A DNA stretch of 64,000 nt from an uncultured Methanospirillum sp. (GTDB taxonomy: Archaea; Halobacteriota; Methanomicrobia; Methanomicrobiales; Methanospirillaceae), in NCBI RefSeq assembly GCF_963668475.1, contig NZ_OY764544.1, positions 1,798,001 to 1,862,000 on the forward strand, read 5' to 3'. Below, in pieces: positions 46,548 to 59,690 of the stretch. The stretch's first letter is position 1. The number at the start of each line of letters is the position of its first letter. Under the pieces are notes generated by a model. That model saw only the letters and a program-made list of their open reading frames with translations, ran no database searches and was not told the DNA's origin. Made by a program: the position numbers and the translations under genes.

Positions 46548-47186
46548 ATGGCCCCCGATAAGATCGACACCCGGGTTACAGATCTTATTACTGCTCTCAT
46601 TAATATGGATCGGTTGACATTACGGGAGATACTAAAGCCTGAAGATGGGACCGTAATTAATGAACATACCATCGATACATTAATCGTTCCTGCTCTGGAT
46701 GAGATTGGCCAAAAATGGGAGGATGGAACAGTTGCCATCTCACAGGTATACATGGCCGGAATCCTCATCGAAGAGATGATCTCCAGTGTCATTCCGGATA
46801 TCAGATCAGACGAGAAAAATAAGGAAAAAATTGCAACTGTTGTTCTCGAGGATTACCATATGCTCGGAGAGCGGATCGTAACTGCGTACCTCATAGGTGC
46901 AGGATATGCTCCGTTGCGATACGGACGACGGGATGTGCAGGAGGTATTATCGCTCGTATCTCAGGACAATATCAAATATCTCGCCATATCAACACTCATG
47001 CTCCCTTCAGCATTACGGATCAAGGAAGTAACATCCGGCCTTGCAGGGAAGGGAGTGAAAGTGATAGTCGGAGGAGCACCGTTCAGATTCGATCCTGAAC
47101 TGGGAAAAGAAGTAGGAGCTGACAGGGTCTGTTTTACTGCATCAGACGCTGTAACTGCGATTCGTGAACTTGAGGCGATACCATGA
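46548..47186 (+). CDS. MtaC-like corrinoid protein
   Basis: This 212-residue protein has the methionine-synthase cap (about 1-85; helical, with WEDGTVAISQVYMAG) and a B12-binding Rossmann domain (95-212). The lower-ligand motif D-x-H-x-x-G is present as DYHMLG at 102-107, followed by AGYAPLRYGRRDVQEVL and VKVIVGGAPFRFDPELG. Related proteins (MtaC, MtbC, MtmC) carry the methyl group in methylotrophic pathways. It overlaps the next gene by 4 bases (ATGA). No substrate methyltransferase (MtaB/MttB type) is nearby, so a sensing or non-catabolic role is likely. Confidence 0.9.
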   Translation: MAPDKIDTRVTDLITALINMDRLTLREILKPEDGTVINEHTIDTLIVPALDEIGQKWEDGTVAISQVYMAGILIEEMISSVIPDIRSDEKNKEKIATVVLEDYHMLGERIVTAYLIGAGYAPLRYGRRDVQEVLSLVSQDNIKYLAISTLMLPSALRIKEVTSGLAGKGVKVIVGGAPFRFDPELGKEVGADRVCFTASDAVTAIRELEAIP

Positions 47187-48223
47187 CCATGACCTCCAGG
47201 GAACGGATTCTGACAACACTCAGCCATAAAGAACCAGACCGTGTTCCGCTAATTCTCAATCCCACCATGCATCCTGCACGTGACCTGGGCATTCCCTTTA
47301 AAGAGTACTTCAGATCACCTGAACTCGTTGCCCAGGGCCTGATCACTTCCCGGGAGAAGTTCGGTACCGATGCATACATCGGATTCCATTACACTCCGGT
47401 AGAATACGAAGCATTCGGCGGGGATGTCATCTTCAGAGATGATGGCCCTCCAAACAGTGGAAGACCGGTTATCAATACCGGGGAGATAATTGACAACCTG
47501 CAGGTTCCCCTGATCCATGAAACACCCTGCCTTCAGATGGTACTGGATATGATCCGGATTCTGAAAGCAAAATCACCAGATGATGCACCGATATTTGGTG
47601 TAGCACTCTCTCCACTTTCACTTCCGGTTATGCAGATGGGATTTGAGGATTATATCAAACTCATGTACACCGACGAGATCAGGTTTCAAAAGCTCATAGC
47701 CGTAAACAGCAGCTTTTTTTTGGACTGGGCAGCAGCACAGATAGAGGCTGGTGCTGATGGAATTGTCTATTATGATCCGGTCTCATCTCCTACCATCATT
47801 CCCCTTGAACTATACCGGAAAACAGGTCTGAAAATTGCACAAAACCTTATCCATCAGGTTCCAGGGCCTGTTGTTTCTGCATTTGCATCAGCCCGGGTTC
47901 TTCCCATCCTTGATGATGTTCTCACGACAGGAACAGTCGGAATCGCTGTTTGGGCTGGAGGAAATGAAAATATCAAAGAGATCAAATTAAAAAGCACAGG
48001 AAAAGTTACTATCATCGGAAATCTGAACGGCATAGAAATGCGACACTGGACCCGGGAACAGGCCTTTTCTATTGTGAAAAAGGCCATACAAGGTCTTGCA
48101 AAAGGCGGAGGTTTTATTTTGAGCGACACACATGGTGAAATTCCACTCCAGGTACCTGATGAGGTCCTGTATGCTATCCGGGATGCTGCAAGAGAGTATG
48201 GGGGGTATCCGATTTCTGTCTGA
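47183..48223 (+). CDS. URO-D/MtaA-like methyltransferase without the usual zinc ligands
   Basis: This 346-residue protein is of the uroporphyrinogen-decarboxylase/cobalamin methyltransferase superfamily: MTSRERILTTLSHKEPDRVPL at the start, then YIGFHYTPVEYEAFGGDV and a barrel core with VSSPTIIPLELYRKTG, GKVTIIGNLNG and GGGFILSDTHGEIP. MtaA/MtbA use His-x-Cys and a later Cys to bind zinc. Where the first would be, this sequence has VVSAFASARVLP, and the second site reads ILSDTHGEIP. So the zinc-thiolate chemistry with coenzyme M is doubtful. It is coupled to the corrinoid gene by a 4-base overlap and followed by the kinase 7 bases on. Confidence 0.85.
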   Translation: MTMTSRERILTTLSHKEPDRVPLILNPTMHPARDLGIPFKEYFRSPELVAQGLITSREKFGTDAYIGFHYTPVEYEAFGGDVIFRDDGPPNSGRPVINTGEIIDNLQVPLIHETPCLQMVLDMIRILKAKSPDDAPIFGVALSPLSLPVMQMGFEDYIKLMYTDEIRFQKLIAVNSSFFLDWAAAQIEAGADGIVYYDPVSSPTIIPLELYRKTGLKIAQNLIHQVPGPVVSAFASARVLPILDDVLTTGTVGIAVWAGGNENIKEIKLKSTGKVTIIGNLNGIEMRHWTREQAFSIVKKAIQGLAKGGGFILSDTHGEIPLQVPDEVLYAIRDAAREYGGYPISV

Positions 48224-48230
48224 AGTTGAT

Positions 48231-50441
48231 GTGAGTGATCGTATCCTCTTTATTTGTGAAACCCTTGAAGAGGAGATCACCAGAGTTATTGCCGATATTC
48301 AGGCACAAAACGTCAGGATATGTGTCTTTCCTCATTATTGTACTTCTGGATTTCATCGGTCAGACACCATTAGTTCATTCCTGAAAGAACAGATCCAGCC
48401 AGGTCAGACCGGCCTATTTTTCGGTGATGCAGAGCCCGGAGCACAAGGCCTTTTACCACCCGGGATCTCTCATGCCGGTCCAGACACATGTTCAGAACTC
48501 CTGGCACCAGGAGAATATATTCAATCGCTCATAATTCAGGGAGCATTCATCATCAATTCAGGATGGCTCCGGTCCTGGGAGAAGTATGTCATTAAGATGG
48601 GATTTGATCCCAAAAAACCCACCTCTTACTACTCTTCAAGCCTGAAAGAGATTGTTGTGCTTGATTGCGGGCTGGTATCCATTCCTAAAGAACGAATCTC
48701 ATCACTGGAGACTTTTTCAGGCCTGCCTATCAGAGTAATTCCGGTTGGTCTTTCTCATCTCTCCGGAGTTGTCCGTGCTGAAATCCTTCAGTTGCAGGCA
48801 GAAAATATTAAGGACGAGTGCAAAAAAGAAATCTCTTCAGCACTTGAGACAACCGCCCGTCAGATGGCGGTTTTAACGCTTCTCAGCGATATCTCCCAGG
48901 TCAGTGAAGAGAAAGAAGTTATCTCCCGTATTCTTACGACCTGTCAATTACTGTTTGCCCCACGTTTTGTCGGTTATCTTCCAATTGAGTCAGAAGGCCC
49001 AGAAGAGATGATAATCATGCCACTCGGTTCAGAGGGTGGTATGAAGGAGGAACTGCTCTTATCAGTAATCGGTAAGGACTATCTCTTTTATGAAGATGGA
49101 ACCGGTTTCTGTGTTCCAATTGCGTATCTCAGGGAAACAGTTGGTATTCTTGAGATATCCGGGGTATCAGTTCCTGACCGTATCAGGGAGTACCTCAACC
49201 TGACTCTTTCATTTACCCGCTTCCTTGGTCTTGTAATAAAAAATGCCAGGTCCTGGCATGAATTGAGACAAACCCGGGATGCCCTTGAGAATGCAAATAC
49301 CGAACTACATGATAAGAATGAAGAGTTAGTTGCGATCTCTCAGGAACTCCAGTCCTCAAACCAGGAACTGATTACAAGTCAGAAAGAACTGAGTGAGAGA
49401 GAACAATTTATCAAAACAATTGTGAATTCTGCACGGGTAGGAATTGCTGTAGTAGATCCAGATTTTCGCATCCTGTTCTGGAATCCTGAGATGGAGAGAT
49501 TGTTTGGTATATTATATTCCGATTGTATTAAAAAATCAATTTCTGATGTGATTCCTCATTTCCTTTTAGAGCAGACACATTCACTTCTTATTCAGGGCCT
49601 TTCAGGTCAAACAGTACAGGCACCGGATTATGAACTACCTGAATCGTTATCCGGGAAGAAAACCTGGATGTCAGCGATATTTAACCCGATATTTGACATA
49701 AGTCAGAACATCATCGGGGTCATCATTAATGTCAACGATATCACAATCCGAAAGGAGTCAGAACGTGATCTTGAACGTGCGTATGATGCAATCCATACTG
49801 CTCAGTCAAAACTCGCAATTTTAAGCAGCGTAACAAGGCATGACATTCTCAATCGGATCATGGTCATATCATATTATAGCGAAATACTCACGGAGAACTT
49901 CACTGATGAAGTGATACTGAAGCAATTAAAGAGAATGTCAATTGCCAGCAAGGATATTCAACATCTCATTGAATTTACCAAGGAATACCAGGAACTCGGA
50001 TATACAAAACCAACATGGCAACGAATTGGTAATGTCATGAACAGAAACTCTATTCAGTCTGTCCTGACAGGGATAGACCTTTCATTTCAGGGTGATGAAT
50101 TCGAGATTTACGTAGACCCCATGCTGGAAAAAGTTCTGTATAATCTGGTGGAGAATTCAAAGCGTCATGGAGAGACAGTTACTGCAATTTCCATCAACAC
50201 AGAGCCGGCTGGTGATGACCTTATTGTAACCTATTCAGATAACGGAGTAGGGGTTGCAGAGGAGGAGAAGAAACTTATCTTCAAGCAGGGGCATGGGAAA
50301 AATACCGGGATGGGTCTGTTTCTGATCAGTGAAATCCTGGGGCTGACCAATATCTCGATCAGGGAGTGCGGTGTGCCAGGCGAAGGAGTCAGGTTCGAGA
50401 TGAAGGTTCCCAAGAGTGGATGGCGCAGGATCGCAGAATAA
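48231..50441 (+). CDS. corrinoid-linked sensor histidine kinase (DUF1638-like-GAF-PAS-HK)
   Basis: From the GTG at 48231 this is 736 residues. The N-terminal 190 residues resemble DUF1638 (ILFICETLEEEITRVI near the start, GAFIINSGWLRSWEKY, VVLDCGLVSIP, LPIRVIPVGLSHL), a family found beside corrinoid methyltransferases; Cys at 9, 37, 87 and 146 are candidate ligands. GAF follows (about 215-340), then coiled coil, PAS (393-510) and a kinase core with His537 (TRHDIL) and HATPase (about 640-730; DNGVGV, KNTGMGLFLISE). It has no TM helix, so it is cytoplasmic. An ATG at 48198 would overlap the URO-D gene by 26 bases. The context suggests it senses the corrinoid pair upstream. Confidence 0.85.
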   Translation: MSDRILFICETLEEEITRVIADIQAQNVRICVFPHYCTSGFHRSDTISSFLKEQIQPGQTGLFFGDAEPGAQGLLPPGISHAGPDTCSELLAPGEYIQSLIIQGAFIINSGWLRSWEKYVIKMGFDPKKPTSYYSSSLKEIVVLDCGLVSIPKERISSLETFSGLPIRVIPVGLSHLSGVVRAEILQLQAENIKDECKKEISSALETTARQMAVLTLLSDISQVSEEKEVISRILTTCQLLFAPRFVGYLPIESEGPEEMIIMPLGSEGGMKEELLLSVIGKDYLFYEDGTGFCVPIAYLRETVGILEISGVSVPDRIREYLNLTLSFTRFLGLVIKNARSWHELRQTRDALENANTELHDKNEELVAISQELQSSNQELITSQKELSEREQFIKTIVNSARVGIAVVDPDFRILFWNPEMERLFGILYSDCIKKSISDVIPHFLLEQTHSLLIQGLSGQTVQAPDYELPESLSGKKTWMSAIFNPIFDISQNIIGVIINVNDITIRKESERDLERAYDAIHTAQSKLAILSSVTRHDILNRIMVISYYSEILTENFTDEVILKQLKRMSIASKDIQHLIEFTKEYQELGYTKPTWQRIGNVMNRNSIQSVLTGIDLSFQGDEFEIYVDPMLEKVLYNLVENSKRHGETVTAISINTEPAGDDLIVTYSDNGVGVAEEEKKLIFKQGHGKNTGMGLFLISEILGLTNISIRECGVPGEGVRFEMKVPKSGWRRIAE

Positions 50442-57407: not shown

Positions 57408-59690
57408 TCAGACCCCACGTTTCCACTTCTCTTTCGGCACAATTATCTCAAACCTTACACCTTCTCCAGGTAATCCGGTCTCCCTGATAGTCACTTCCGT
57501 TATAGCCAGGATCTGCTTAGAAACAAACAGTCCGACCCCGGTATGTTTTCCAAATGACCAGTCAAAGATGCGGGGTTTATCTTCTTCATCAATTCCAACT
57601 CCATTATCCTCATACACAATTAACAGATCTGCATCCCGGATTGTTGCCCTGAATATGATATCAGTCACATGCTCCCCATGTCGTGAAGAGTTTTCAACGA
57701 GCGTGTAGAATACCTTCTCAAACATAGGATCAGCCAGTATTTCCACAGGAACCAGATCAAGGTGCCAGTTGAATGTAATTGTCGGGAGAAGCAGGTGAAC
57801 ACGGTTAATTATTGTCTCCAGATTTTGCCATATTGGTTCAGTTGTCCCGATATTCTCATAAACCCGGGTAAATTCTATCTGAGCCTGAACAGATCGTGTC
57901 AGATCCATACATGAACGCAGGTATGATTGAGTAGGCCCTTCAGGAGTATCTTCCAGGCATATCTCCAGGTATCCCAGGAGCCCGGTAATCTGGTTGAGGA
58001 TGTCATGGCGGGTTATCCCGGTCAGGAGATTTAGTCTGATATTTGCCTGCCTGAATGCTTCCTGTGTTGCATGGAGTTCGCGGGTCCGGGCGGCAACGAT
58101 GGTTTCAAGATCCTCATACAGCCGGGTCAGTTTGTCTTCGGCATCTTTCCTGAGAGTGATATCAGTAAAACTGGCTCTGATTACTTTTGGACCAAGGCTT
58201 GGGAGATGGACAATTGTTACATCACAATAGATCTCTTTCTTATCATACGTGGTAATTAACCGCTCAAAACCAATAATCTGACCTGATAATACCTTATCAA
58301 GATGTTCCCGAATGATTGACGGGAGATTATTATCAAGTTCATTTGCTTTAGTATAAAATTCGGAATAATTCAGTGAGCGTAACTGTTCCATCGAACATCC
58401 AAGCAGACTCAATGCTTTAGGGTTCGCTTCAACAAATCCATTTTTATCCAGATCATATACGATGATGGCATCAGGGGCATTATTTATGAGTGTCCGGTAT
58501 CTCTCTTCACTTTCATGAAGACGTTTTTCTGCTGACAACCGGTGCCTCCGATTCAGGATAAGACCGGCGATTAACAGAGTTTCAGAAACGATTATGATGA
58601 TAATCCATACGATAACGAATGAGTACTTTTCCCAGACTGAATCTTCCCGGTTTACAATAATGCTACCTTTAGGAAGGATTGCCGGATCAATATTGAATCG
58701 TGAGAGTTCATTCCAGTCAAACTTGTATATCCTGAGATCTTCAGGGTCGAGTTCACCTTGATTTGTGATATTACCCTGTAATGCCTGGAGAGCCAGAGAC
58801 CCAATCTCCTTTCCATACATCTCCGGACTGAGCAGATATCCTCCGACAATTCCTCTATTTACATATGTTTCACTGGGCCCGAATATTGGAGCCTGTGCTA
58901 TGGTATATATCCGGCTCAATGAATCTTCAGGGCTAAAGTGGTTTCCATTGATATCCTGTGCATAACTGATATATAATATCGCAGAATCCCGTGGAATTTT
59001 TGATATTTGAGGCAATAGTTCATTGTGAGACTGGTTTATGAGATATGTTACCGGAACAGAGAGGTTCATATCAGAGATCTGCTGTTTCAGAGCCTCTAAT
59101 TCATCAATCTCATCAGGTCCTGATCCGGATATTACATAGATCTGTCTGGTATGAGGAAACAATGAGAGTATTGTCTCAATATTTTTTCCTGTGCTATATC
59201 CCTTCTCTGGAACCACCGGGGTGATTGTCAGGTTATGTATCACTCCGGGATCTACATCGCTGATGATTGGGATACCTTGTACAAGTTCCAGGGGCATCCC
59301 GGACAACAGATCGATTGCAAGGATATCTTTTGTAATTATTACATCCGGTTTGAGGGCTTGGATCTTGTATCTATACAGATCATCTATCTTTGAAAGATAC
59401 GTCTCATCACGATAATCAGGAATATTCAGGTACTCGGTTACGAATCGTAGGGGAACAGAAGAGTTCTTTTTGAGTTCTTCGCTGATCCCTGTGATAAAAA
59501 GAGTTTCATAAGGACTTTTACCGTCGGTTGATACGAGTAATAGAATCGTTTTGACTGAACTTTCTGAAAAATCTGAGTGCGCCGGATCATCTGATTGAAG
59601 AATGAGTTCTGAGGATGCCGGGATTGAAAACAGAGAAACGAGAACCAGCATCAGGATTACTCTTTTAAAAACCTGAATATTCTGCTCCAT
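57408..59690 (-). CDS. membrane sensor kinase with ABC-type ligand-binding sensor
   Basis: This 760-residue protein has a signal/TM start (1-28), an extracytoplasmic ABC-type substrate-binding domain (about 50-335; TILLLVSTDGKSPYETLFIT, GIPIISDVDPGVIHNL, YSTGKNIETILSLFP), a TM helix near 356-380, PAS (about 390-510), coiled coil, then a kinase core with His562 (TRHDIL) and HATPase (near 690-750; EDNGVGID, HTGVGLFVSKQ). It should sense a small external ligand such as an amino acid or peptide. Its kinase core is very like that of the kinase at 48231-50441. There is no adjacent response regulator; the free receivers elsewhere are possible partners. Confidence 0.9.
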   Translation of the reverse strand: MEQNIQVFKRVILMLVLVSLFSIPASSELILQSDDPAHSDFSESSVKTILLLVSTDGKSPYETLFITGISEELKKNSSVPLRFVTEYLNIPDYRDETYLSKIDDLYRYKIQALKPDVIITKDILAIDLLSGMPLELVQGIPIISDVDPGVIHNLTITPVVPEKGYSTGKNIETILSLFPHTRQIYVISGSGPDEIDELEALKQQISDMNLSVPVTYLINQSHNELLPQISKIPRDSAILYISYAQDINGNHFSPEDSLSRIYTIAQAPIFGPSETYVNRGIVGGYLLSPEMYGKEIGSLALQALQGNITNQGELDPEDLRIYKFDWNELSRFNIDPAILPKGSIIVNREDSVWEKYSFVIVWIIIIIVSETLLIAGLILNRRHRLSAEKRLHESEERYRTLINNAPDAIIVYDLDKNGFVEANPKALSLLGCSMEQLRSLNYSEFYTKANELDNNLPSIIREHLDKVLSGQIIGFERLITTYDKKEIYCDVTIVHLPSLGPKVIRASFTDITLRKDAEDKLTRLYEDLETIVAARTRELHATQEAFRQANIRLNLLTGITRHDILNQITGLLGYLEICLEDTPEGPTQSYLRSCMDLTRSVQAQIEFTRVYENIGTTEPIWQNLETIINRVHLLLPTITFNWHLDLVPVEILADPMFEKVFYTLVENSSRHGEHVTDIIFRATIRDADLLIVYEDNGVGIDEEDKPRIFDWSFGKHTGVGLFVSKQILAITEVTIRETGLPGEGVRFEIIVPKEKWKRGV

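Follow-up and report, generated by a model that had tools for sequence, protein, structure and literature searches.

The 64,000 nucleotide (nt) window analyzed here comes from an uncultured Methanospirillum sp. (contig NZ_OY764544.1, positions 1,798,001 to 1,862,000). At positions 46548–50441 the open reading frame (ORF) listing of the window displays three genes in the same direction, which encode a corrinoid protein (termed CORR), a protein of the URO-D superfamily and a histidine kinase with a DUF1638-like head. These genes very probably constitute a dedicated signalling cassette that is built on the corrinoid protein. If so, the signal would, with somewhat better than even odds, be the methyl state of CORR as fed by the URO-D protein. 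The combined reading, in which CORR and the URO-D protein would be the sensory input of the DUF1638-GAF kinase and would report the methyl state of CORR, stands at about even chances. The basis is the gene order, the spread over Archaea and Bacteria, the co-occurrence of the genes, the intact corrinoid motif, the missing thiol-type zinc motif and the exchange of outputs. A prior sequence-only reading had proposed the corrinoid pair as the input of the kinase, and gene order, co-occurrence and exchanged outputs all point in that direction. The parts of the operon are as follows.

46548–47186, + strand: CORR, corrinoid protein of 212 amino acids (aa), helical cap and B12-binding domain (PF02310 and PF02607 above cut-off).
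46851–46868, + strand: DYHMLG, the DxHxxG cobalt-ligand motif, residues 102–107 of ORF1 (D, H and G in 100/100 cassette CORR proteins).
47183–48223, + strand: 346-aa protein of the URO-D superfamily, which lacks the His-x-Cys zinc motif and contains DTHGEIP (PF01208 at 3.3e-49; motif comparison).
48231–50441, + strand: DUF1638-like/GAF/PAS histidine kinase of 736 aa (GTG start; ATG at 48198 possible).
48231–48842, + strand: DUF1638-like head, residues 1–204, with Cys9, Cys37, Cys87 and Glu at 68 (sub-threshold PF07796; model pLDDT 93.7).
48828–49331, + strand: predicted GAF region, residues 200–367 (model pLDDT 86.5; resembles GAF structures).
49407–49742, + strand: PAS domain, residues 393–504 (PF00989 at 5.4e-14; most relatives of the order are without PAS).
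49773–50438, + strand: transmitter with HATPase_c (PF02518) and an RHDILN box that includes His537 (the same in all 24 kinases aligned).

The three linked ORFs described in the sequence-only reading are thus present, with chain lengths of 212, 346 and 736 aa. The 4-base overlap (47183–47186) and the 7-base gap (48224–48230) are also correct, provided that GTG 48231 is the start of the kinase. The alternative start, ATG 48198, gives a 26-base overlap with the URO-D gene. If the first possible start is always taken, the spacings range from −59 to +84 across all loci of the archaeal order and all named loci, and the starts in relatives are ambiguous. Rfam and tRNA scans of the window gave no matches.

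The cassette is conserved in the order Methanomicrobiales. Of the 199 genomes of the order, 25 have a CORR relative above 120 bits, the host included. In 23 of the 24 other neighbourhoods CORR is followed by the URO-D gene and then by a kinase with a like head, which is more than chance; the contig of the 24th ends inside URO-D. The 4-base overlap between CORR and URO-D is present in 21 of the 24. Among the 8 genomes of the genus Methanospirillum, four have both CORR and the head and four have neither; the cassette is present in Methanospirillum stamsii (L058) and in a genome of the same genus (G149:C36). A search with a profile of the head finds 29 of the 199 genomes, i.e. the same 25, genome G153 and three with a divergent kinase, so that both components occur in 25 genomes, CORR alone in 0 and the head alone in 4. 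The G153 locus (L217) is a decayed cassette. It has no CORR match, its URO-D frame is short at the start and its kinase is split.

In the phylum, 30 of 392 genomes scanned have a CORR of at least 153 bits, and the next match is at 104.5 bits. Half of these genomes (15/30) belong to one family, f8, whose many further corrinoid proteins suggest that it is Methanosarcinaceae. CORR, URO-D, DUF, GAF and transmitter matches are all present in 13 of the 16 f8 loci fetched. One of these 13, L174, has the DUF on one reading frame and the GAF-transmitter part on another. At L176 and L177 URO-D is present with a GAF kinase in which no DUF is detected, the URO-D frame of L176 being short. Ten proteins flanking f8 loci were named as one MASE3 kinase, two ThiF, MoaE, NadA, isocitrate dehydrogenase, two CBS, an OB-fold protein and one unknown. 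The remaining f8 locus, L185 (genome G276), is a decayed cassette with URO-D missing and CORR shortened. A second CORR-like gene (L173:6808–7467, 176 bits) is found at L173, directly before the cassette CORR.

For named genomes the best 80 of 247 confirmed CORR relatives were kept, and 74 of these 80 are bacterial by name. The bacterial hosts include Chloroflexi, Beta-, Gamma- and Deltaproteobacteria, Verrucomicrobia, Lentisphaerae, Bacteroidetes, Planctomycetota and others; Zoogloea ramigera (L095) is a cultivated one. Near CORR in the 80 loci, URO-D is found in 77 and a DUF and/or GAF match in 76; URO-D together with DUF or GAF is found in 75 and URO-D together with both in 62. At L064, L078, L082, L102 and L121 the sequence ends soon after CORR or URO-D. 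In Candidatus Brocadia (L122:1285–2985) CORR and URO-D form one 566-aa reading frame with CORR first, and this natural fusion suggests a physical association of the two proteins.

The output of the cassette is exchangeable. The DUF-GAF proteins scanned number 64 (the window protein and 63 others from a usable 72, nine having been excluded as short or nearly identical to another), and they display DUF1638 in 55 (E 0.01), HATPase_c in 48, HisKA in 37 and GGDEF in 9. Different outputs on the same head fit a sensory input. Thirty flanking proteins, chosen by hand and not at random, were named with Pfam; they include the ten from f8 loci. Ten genes downstream of the cassette at nine bacterial loci were among them, and six of these start with a receiver domain that leads into HATPase, HisKA plus HATPase, or PAS-GGDEF-EAL. 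The other four are a kinase with receiver matches, a kinase without, and a pair at L083 (an SMC-like protein and an unknown). Ten further bacterial flanks gave seven signalling proteins (including a chemoreceptor, PAS kinases and receivers), an HMG-CoA reductase, a TPR protein and an unknown. No substrate methyltransferase is present among the 30 Pfam-named flanking proteins, other flanks not having been scanned.

As a control, 20 loci around catalytic-type corrinoid proteins (86–105 bits) were analyzed. The DUF head is found in 0 of 20, and a kinase-like gene follows CORR and URO-D in one, L191. The L191 locus displays a divergent version, with a corrinoid protein, a URO-D protein (154 bits) and a GAF-kinase of 421 aa in which no DUF1638 head is detected. 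The sequence-only reading had named three observations that would speak against it, and none of them was made. The three genes are not usually apart but lie together in most loci of the order, of the named genomes and of the f8 family; a substrate methyltransferase just outside the cassette of relatives is absent among the 30 flanking proteins named; and the kinase domain does co-occur with CORR (25/199 genomes with both, the head profile being made from heads beside CORR).

CORR carries both corrinoid Pfam domains, B12-binding (PF02310) and B12-binding_2 (PF02607), each above cut-off. The protein had been called MtaC-like; its B12 motif DYHMLG is located at residues 102–107 of ORF1. In its two-domain B12 fold and DxHxxG, CORR agrees with the corrinoid proteins of the MtaC/MtbC/MttC type. 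The D, H and G of the motif are intact in 100/100 cassette CORR proteins (motif counts are from 100 CORR and 95 URO-D sequences, after 5 loci repeating archaeal contigs were dropped). The protein is under the curated NCBIfam scores, i.e. TIGR02370 (51.7 vs 215.3 bits), MtbC (48.8 vs 350) and MtaC (32.1 vs 420), and is also below the CarH cut-off (29.6 vs 400 bits). Its solved relatives are the methylamine corrinoid proteins (4.1e-25); matches to the GGDEF-linked 8j2y (6.8e-12) and to 8jbs (7.6e-06) are much weaker.

ORF2 matches the URO-D family PF01208 at 3.3e-49 but falls below the NCBIfam cut-offs for TIGR01463 (91 vs 235.4 bits), MtaA (69.7 vs 400) and MtbA (63.6 vs 600). The His-x-Cys of the His-Cys-Cys zinc site is missing: the HIC of MtaA (4ay7) aligns with FAS in the window protein, in alignments that stop short of the third zinc ligand. 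There is no invariant Cys in the URO-D proteins of 24 relatives. In the 95 cassette URO-D proteins position 233 is His in 81, position 236 is Ser in 93 and position 317 is His in 94, and positions 318, 319 and 321 are Gly, Glu and Pro in 95/95, which makes the C-terminal D-x-HGE-x-P nearly invariant. In profile alignments this motif falls at the GHG of uroporphyrinogen decarboxylases. Members of the URO-D superfamily that are S- or Se-methyltransferases are described as having a His-Cys-Cys zinc site, and O-methyltransferases as having one or both Cys altered (PMC10418091). To judge from motif and scores, the cassette URO-D protein is not an MtaA-type coenzyme M (CoM) methyltransferase; an oxygen-linked donor or an altered function would be more likely. 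The designation of ORF2 as MtaA-like is thus valid at the superfamily level only, because the His-x-Cys motif is absent; as an assignment to MtaA it fails.

Pfam analysis of ORF3 shows PAS and HATPase_c above cut-off, and DUF1638 at 24.6–24.7 vs 27.0 bits. The protein has the marks of a histidine kinase, i.e. the HATPase domain PF02518 and a predicted phospho-acceptor, His537, that is invariant in 24 aligned kinases. The sequence-only reading describes it as a cytoplasmic kinase, a putative location. The head is modelled with a mean predicted local distance difference test score (pLDDT) of 93.7. The proposed DUF1638-like N-domain therefore stays just under the cut-off when scored by Pfam itself, but its homology is supported by the reverse search: the head profile finds 19 proteins in a protein collection (7996 candidates scored) and all are PF07796. 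By this profile evidence the head appears homologous to DUF1638. The GAF domain, which had also been proposed, is one to which Pfam is blind in the window protein; the predicted fold of the region (mean pLDDT 86.5) matches GAF-bearing structures, among them those of PDE5A, Lcd1, KdpD and NifA. For comparison 81 of 85 heads were aligned, and 67 of 81 GAF pieces were used. Cys9, Cys68 and Cys87 are found in 19/19 PF07796 proteins and in 81, 63 and 61 of the 81 kinase heads, respectively. The kinase heads add Cys37 in 78/81, and all four Cys are together in 53/81 (within two alignment columns).

The literature on free-standing DUF1638 proteins links them to corrinoids. In Phaeobacter the fitness of such a protein is reported to correlate with methionine synthase genes, DUF1638 and a RamA-like protein co-occur across alpha-Proteobacteria, and the authors judged DUF1638 likely to be part of B12 reactivation, without a specific proposal (PMC5764234). 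DUF1638 is also listed as predicted to recharge cobalamin (PMC12478193). A kinase that bears a DUF1638 head and is encoded next to a corrinoid gene therefore points to the corrinoid as the thing that is read.

Mirror-tree distance correlations are high among the three input parts (CORR-head 0.88, CORR-URO-D 0.83, head-URO-D 0.84) and lower with the transmitter (CORR 0.72, head 0.67, URO-D 0.59); these are from 63 loci and without a species-tree control, where common descent alone can yield such values. In 38 bacterial loci alone the contrast is weaker, and CORR-transmitter (0.81) exceeds CORR-URO-D (0.78). The correlations serve only as support for a coupling of the parts.

The mechanism envisaged is as follows. 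The URO-D protein would move a methyl group between a donor, probably oxygen-linked, and CORR, on whose cobalt it is carried. Docked on CORR, the DUF1638 head would read the state of that protein, and the GAF domain would relay the change to the transmitter, whose phosphorylation target would be a response regulator with its gene at another place. In other species this head would feed into a diguanylate cyclase or into a next-door, receiver-led effector. A more general form, that these are enzyme-coupled sensors shared by both domains of life in which a non-thiol URO-D protein parks the methyl group of a specific compound on CORR for a Cys-rich DUF1638 head to read and so to drive kinases or cyclic-di-GMP enzymes, is conceivable but falls a little short of even odds. 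In this form, methylated compounds would be sensed through a reaction with them and not by binding.

Several observations weigh against the proposal that CORR and the URO-D protein are the input of the kinase. The window URO-D protein is without the His at 233 that 81/95 keep, and the window head is without Cys68, having Glu at 68. There are exceptions with ample sequence, i.e. L101 (no URO-D and no head), L131 (URO-D, no head) and L063 (head, no URO-D). Ten loci show GAF without a detected DUF; these are six from Desulfotignum, two from Lentisphaerae, L135 and L118 (at a contig end). Three orphan divergent DUF1638-GAF-kinases in genus g30 (L218, L219, L220) have no adjoining CORR or URO-D. 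In the control set, L199 has an opposite-strand kinase adjoining its CORR, and L207 has one further off. No receiver or response regulator gene is found among the scanned window neighbours of the operon. The head search is partly circular: re-finding those heads is expected because the profile was built from heads beside CORR, and what is informative is the small number of others.

At the Desulfotignum loci (L086, L087, L088, L089, L090 and L111) CORR and URO-D are accompanied by a GAF-only protein of 239–259 aa, and several kinase-like genes lie upstream in 5/6. In these the signal may pass between proteins.

The main rival to a methyl-state signal is the cobalt redox state. Here CORR would cycle through Co(I), Co(II) and Co(III) as a redox or oxygen sensor, the URO-D protein would serve either as a scaffold or as a partner that reduces it, and its redox state would be read by the Cys-rich head. 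The loss of the thiol-type zinc motif from URO-D, the four head Cys found together in 53/81 heads and the reported tie of DUF1638 to corrinoid reactivation, a redox step (PMC5764234, PMC12478193), would all suit such a sensor. It is nonetheless unlikely: a barrel of full length and the near-invariant D-x-HGE-x-P suggest a site in URO-D that still functions, and the cassette is kept in strict anaerobes. Less probable again is a metabolic methyl-transfer pair with its own regulator in the operon, for which there is a precedent in the mec cassette of dichloromethane degraders. This is described as uniting a corrinoid protein, the MtaA/CmuA-family protein MecE, a sensor kinase and likely reactivation proteins (PMC9768040), and a URO-D protein can itself be a substrate methyltransferase (PMC10418091). 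An acceptor methyltransferase, a transporter and RACE are however all absent among the 30 flanking proteins named, the kinase outputs are swapped for GGDEF, and the MecA kinase is reported to have a PocR domain, not DUF1638 (PMC9768040).

The same gene set and the conserved corrinoid motif would also be expected if the kinase reported the corrinoid loading of CORR, i.e. the availability of cobamide. We regard this as improbable, as it leaves the conserved URO-D partner (77/80) unexplained and no cobamide transport or synthesis gene is present among the 30 flanking proteins. A photoreceptor of the CarH kind, reading the photolysis of an alkyl-corrinoid, is hardly credible. Some hosts carry the names Chloroploca, Oscillochloris and Thiocapsa, which are phototroph genera, and light-responsive cobalamin domains have been reported with diguanylate cyclase or GAF partners (PMC11796333). 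The cassette is however retained by methanogens, CORR is closer to the methylamine corrinoid proteins than to 8j2y or 8jbs (4.1e-25 vs 6.8e-12 and 7.6e-06), and a URO-D protein is superfluous for light sensing.

Modules of corrinoid methyltransferases are known from metabolism, and corrinoid regulators chiefly from light sensing. The cassette shares its superfamilies with MtaA/MtbA and MtaC/MtbC/MttC of methylotrophic methanogens, and CORR keeps DxHxxG, but it has neither His-x-Cys nor scores above the NCBIfam cut-offs nor a substrate methyltransferase, and its partner is a kinase. Type 1 mlp clusters, as described in PMC10418091, similarly have URO-D and corrinoid protein genes in one operon, non-methylotrophs included, and require two Mlps and RACE, with His-Cys-Cys sites apart from a few Mlp1 exceptions. 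Unlike these, the window operon has one URO-D gene, no RACE gene within the operon and a kinase; at least two Mlps, a corrinoid protein and Ram/RACE in the same direction within 2 kb are not found. The mec cassette likewise brings together a corrinoid protein, an MtaA/CmuA-family protein and a two-component regulator, but according to its description it is catabolic, has a second methyltransferase and a transporter, and its kinase head is PocR (PMC9768040). It is an example of a catabolic cluster in which a kinase is encoded together with corrinoid genes. In split methionine synthase systems a homologous domain stands beside a corrinoid protein (PMC5764234), and Cys9, Cys68 and Cys87 are common to both; that DUF1638 is free-standing, whereas the cassette head is fused to GAF and a transmitter or cyclase and has the extra Cys37. 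CarH and other cobalamin-domain regulators also use a corrinoid domain for regulation with varying outputs, but domain and output are in one protein, and the relevant part of that account describes no URO-D or DUF1638 partner (PMC11796333).

No description of the trio was found in searches of the open-licence PubMed Central literature, judged mostly by listing, a weak form of absence. There is nothing unusual in the transmitter half, which is standard for two-component systems. What appears to be of a new kind is the input half (corrinoid protein, URO-D partner and DUF1638 reader), for which those searches gave no counterpart. If the proposal holds, a corrinoid/URO-D signalling pair that ranges from methanogens to Chloroflexi and Proteobacteria and is coupled to kinases or diguanylate cyclases would be a new input to prokaryotic signalling. 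It would also give a role to DUF1638 heads, to genes filed as URO-D or MtaA and to some genetically unlinked methanogen kinases. The trio is small enough to be rebuilt from purified proteins, thus the question is directly testable.

The host genome is one contig of 3.93 Mb. CORR is its sole PF02607 match and the URO-D gene is the only one above cut-off, a weak second match being a MetE-type protein. The statement that no MtaB/MttB-type methyltransferase lies nearby is borne out beyond the window, as neither MTTB nor MtaB is matched anywhere in the genome; MtmB and MtbB were not searched for. An assignment of the genes to methylotrophy was rejected because MTTB and MtaB are absent from the genome and the zinc motif is missing. 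Three Methanomicrobiales are reported to be without such corrinoid proteins or CoM methyltransferases (Anderson et al. 2009, PMC2686161). No PF07796 match to a free-standing DUF1638 protein is found in the host genome by a search that also overlooked the kinase's own head; the head profile finds a single place, the kinase.

Two RACo activase genes are present in the host genome far from the operon. Both adjoin CdhD-family genes, in separate clusters (L186 and L187) with one RACo each, one of them also with CdhC. They were rejected as dedicated partners of the module because of this location; the RACo proteins could act on CORR reactivation all the same.

Methanospirillum hungatei JF1 is reported to have 82 histidine kinases that are generally unlinked to their partners (PMC4704411). 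The window itself contains a second kinase, at 57408–59690 on the − strand, which has a similar transmitter and an N-terminal match to PF04392 (ABC substrate-binding).

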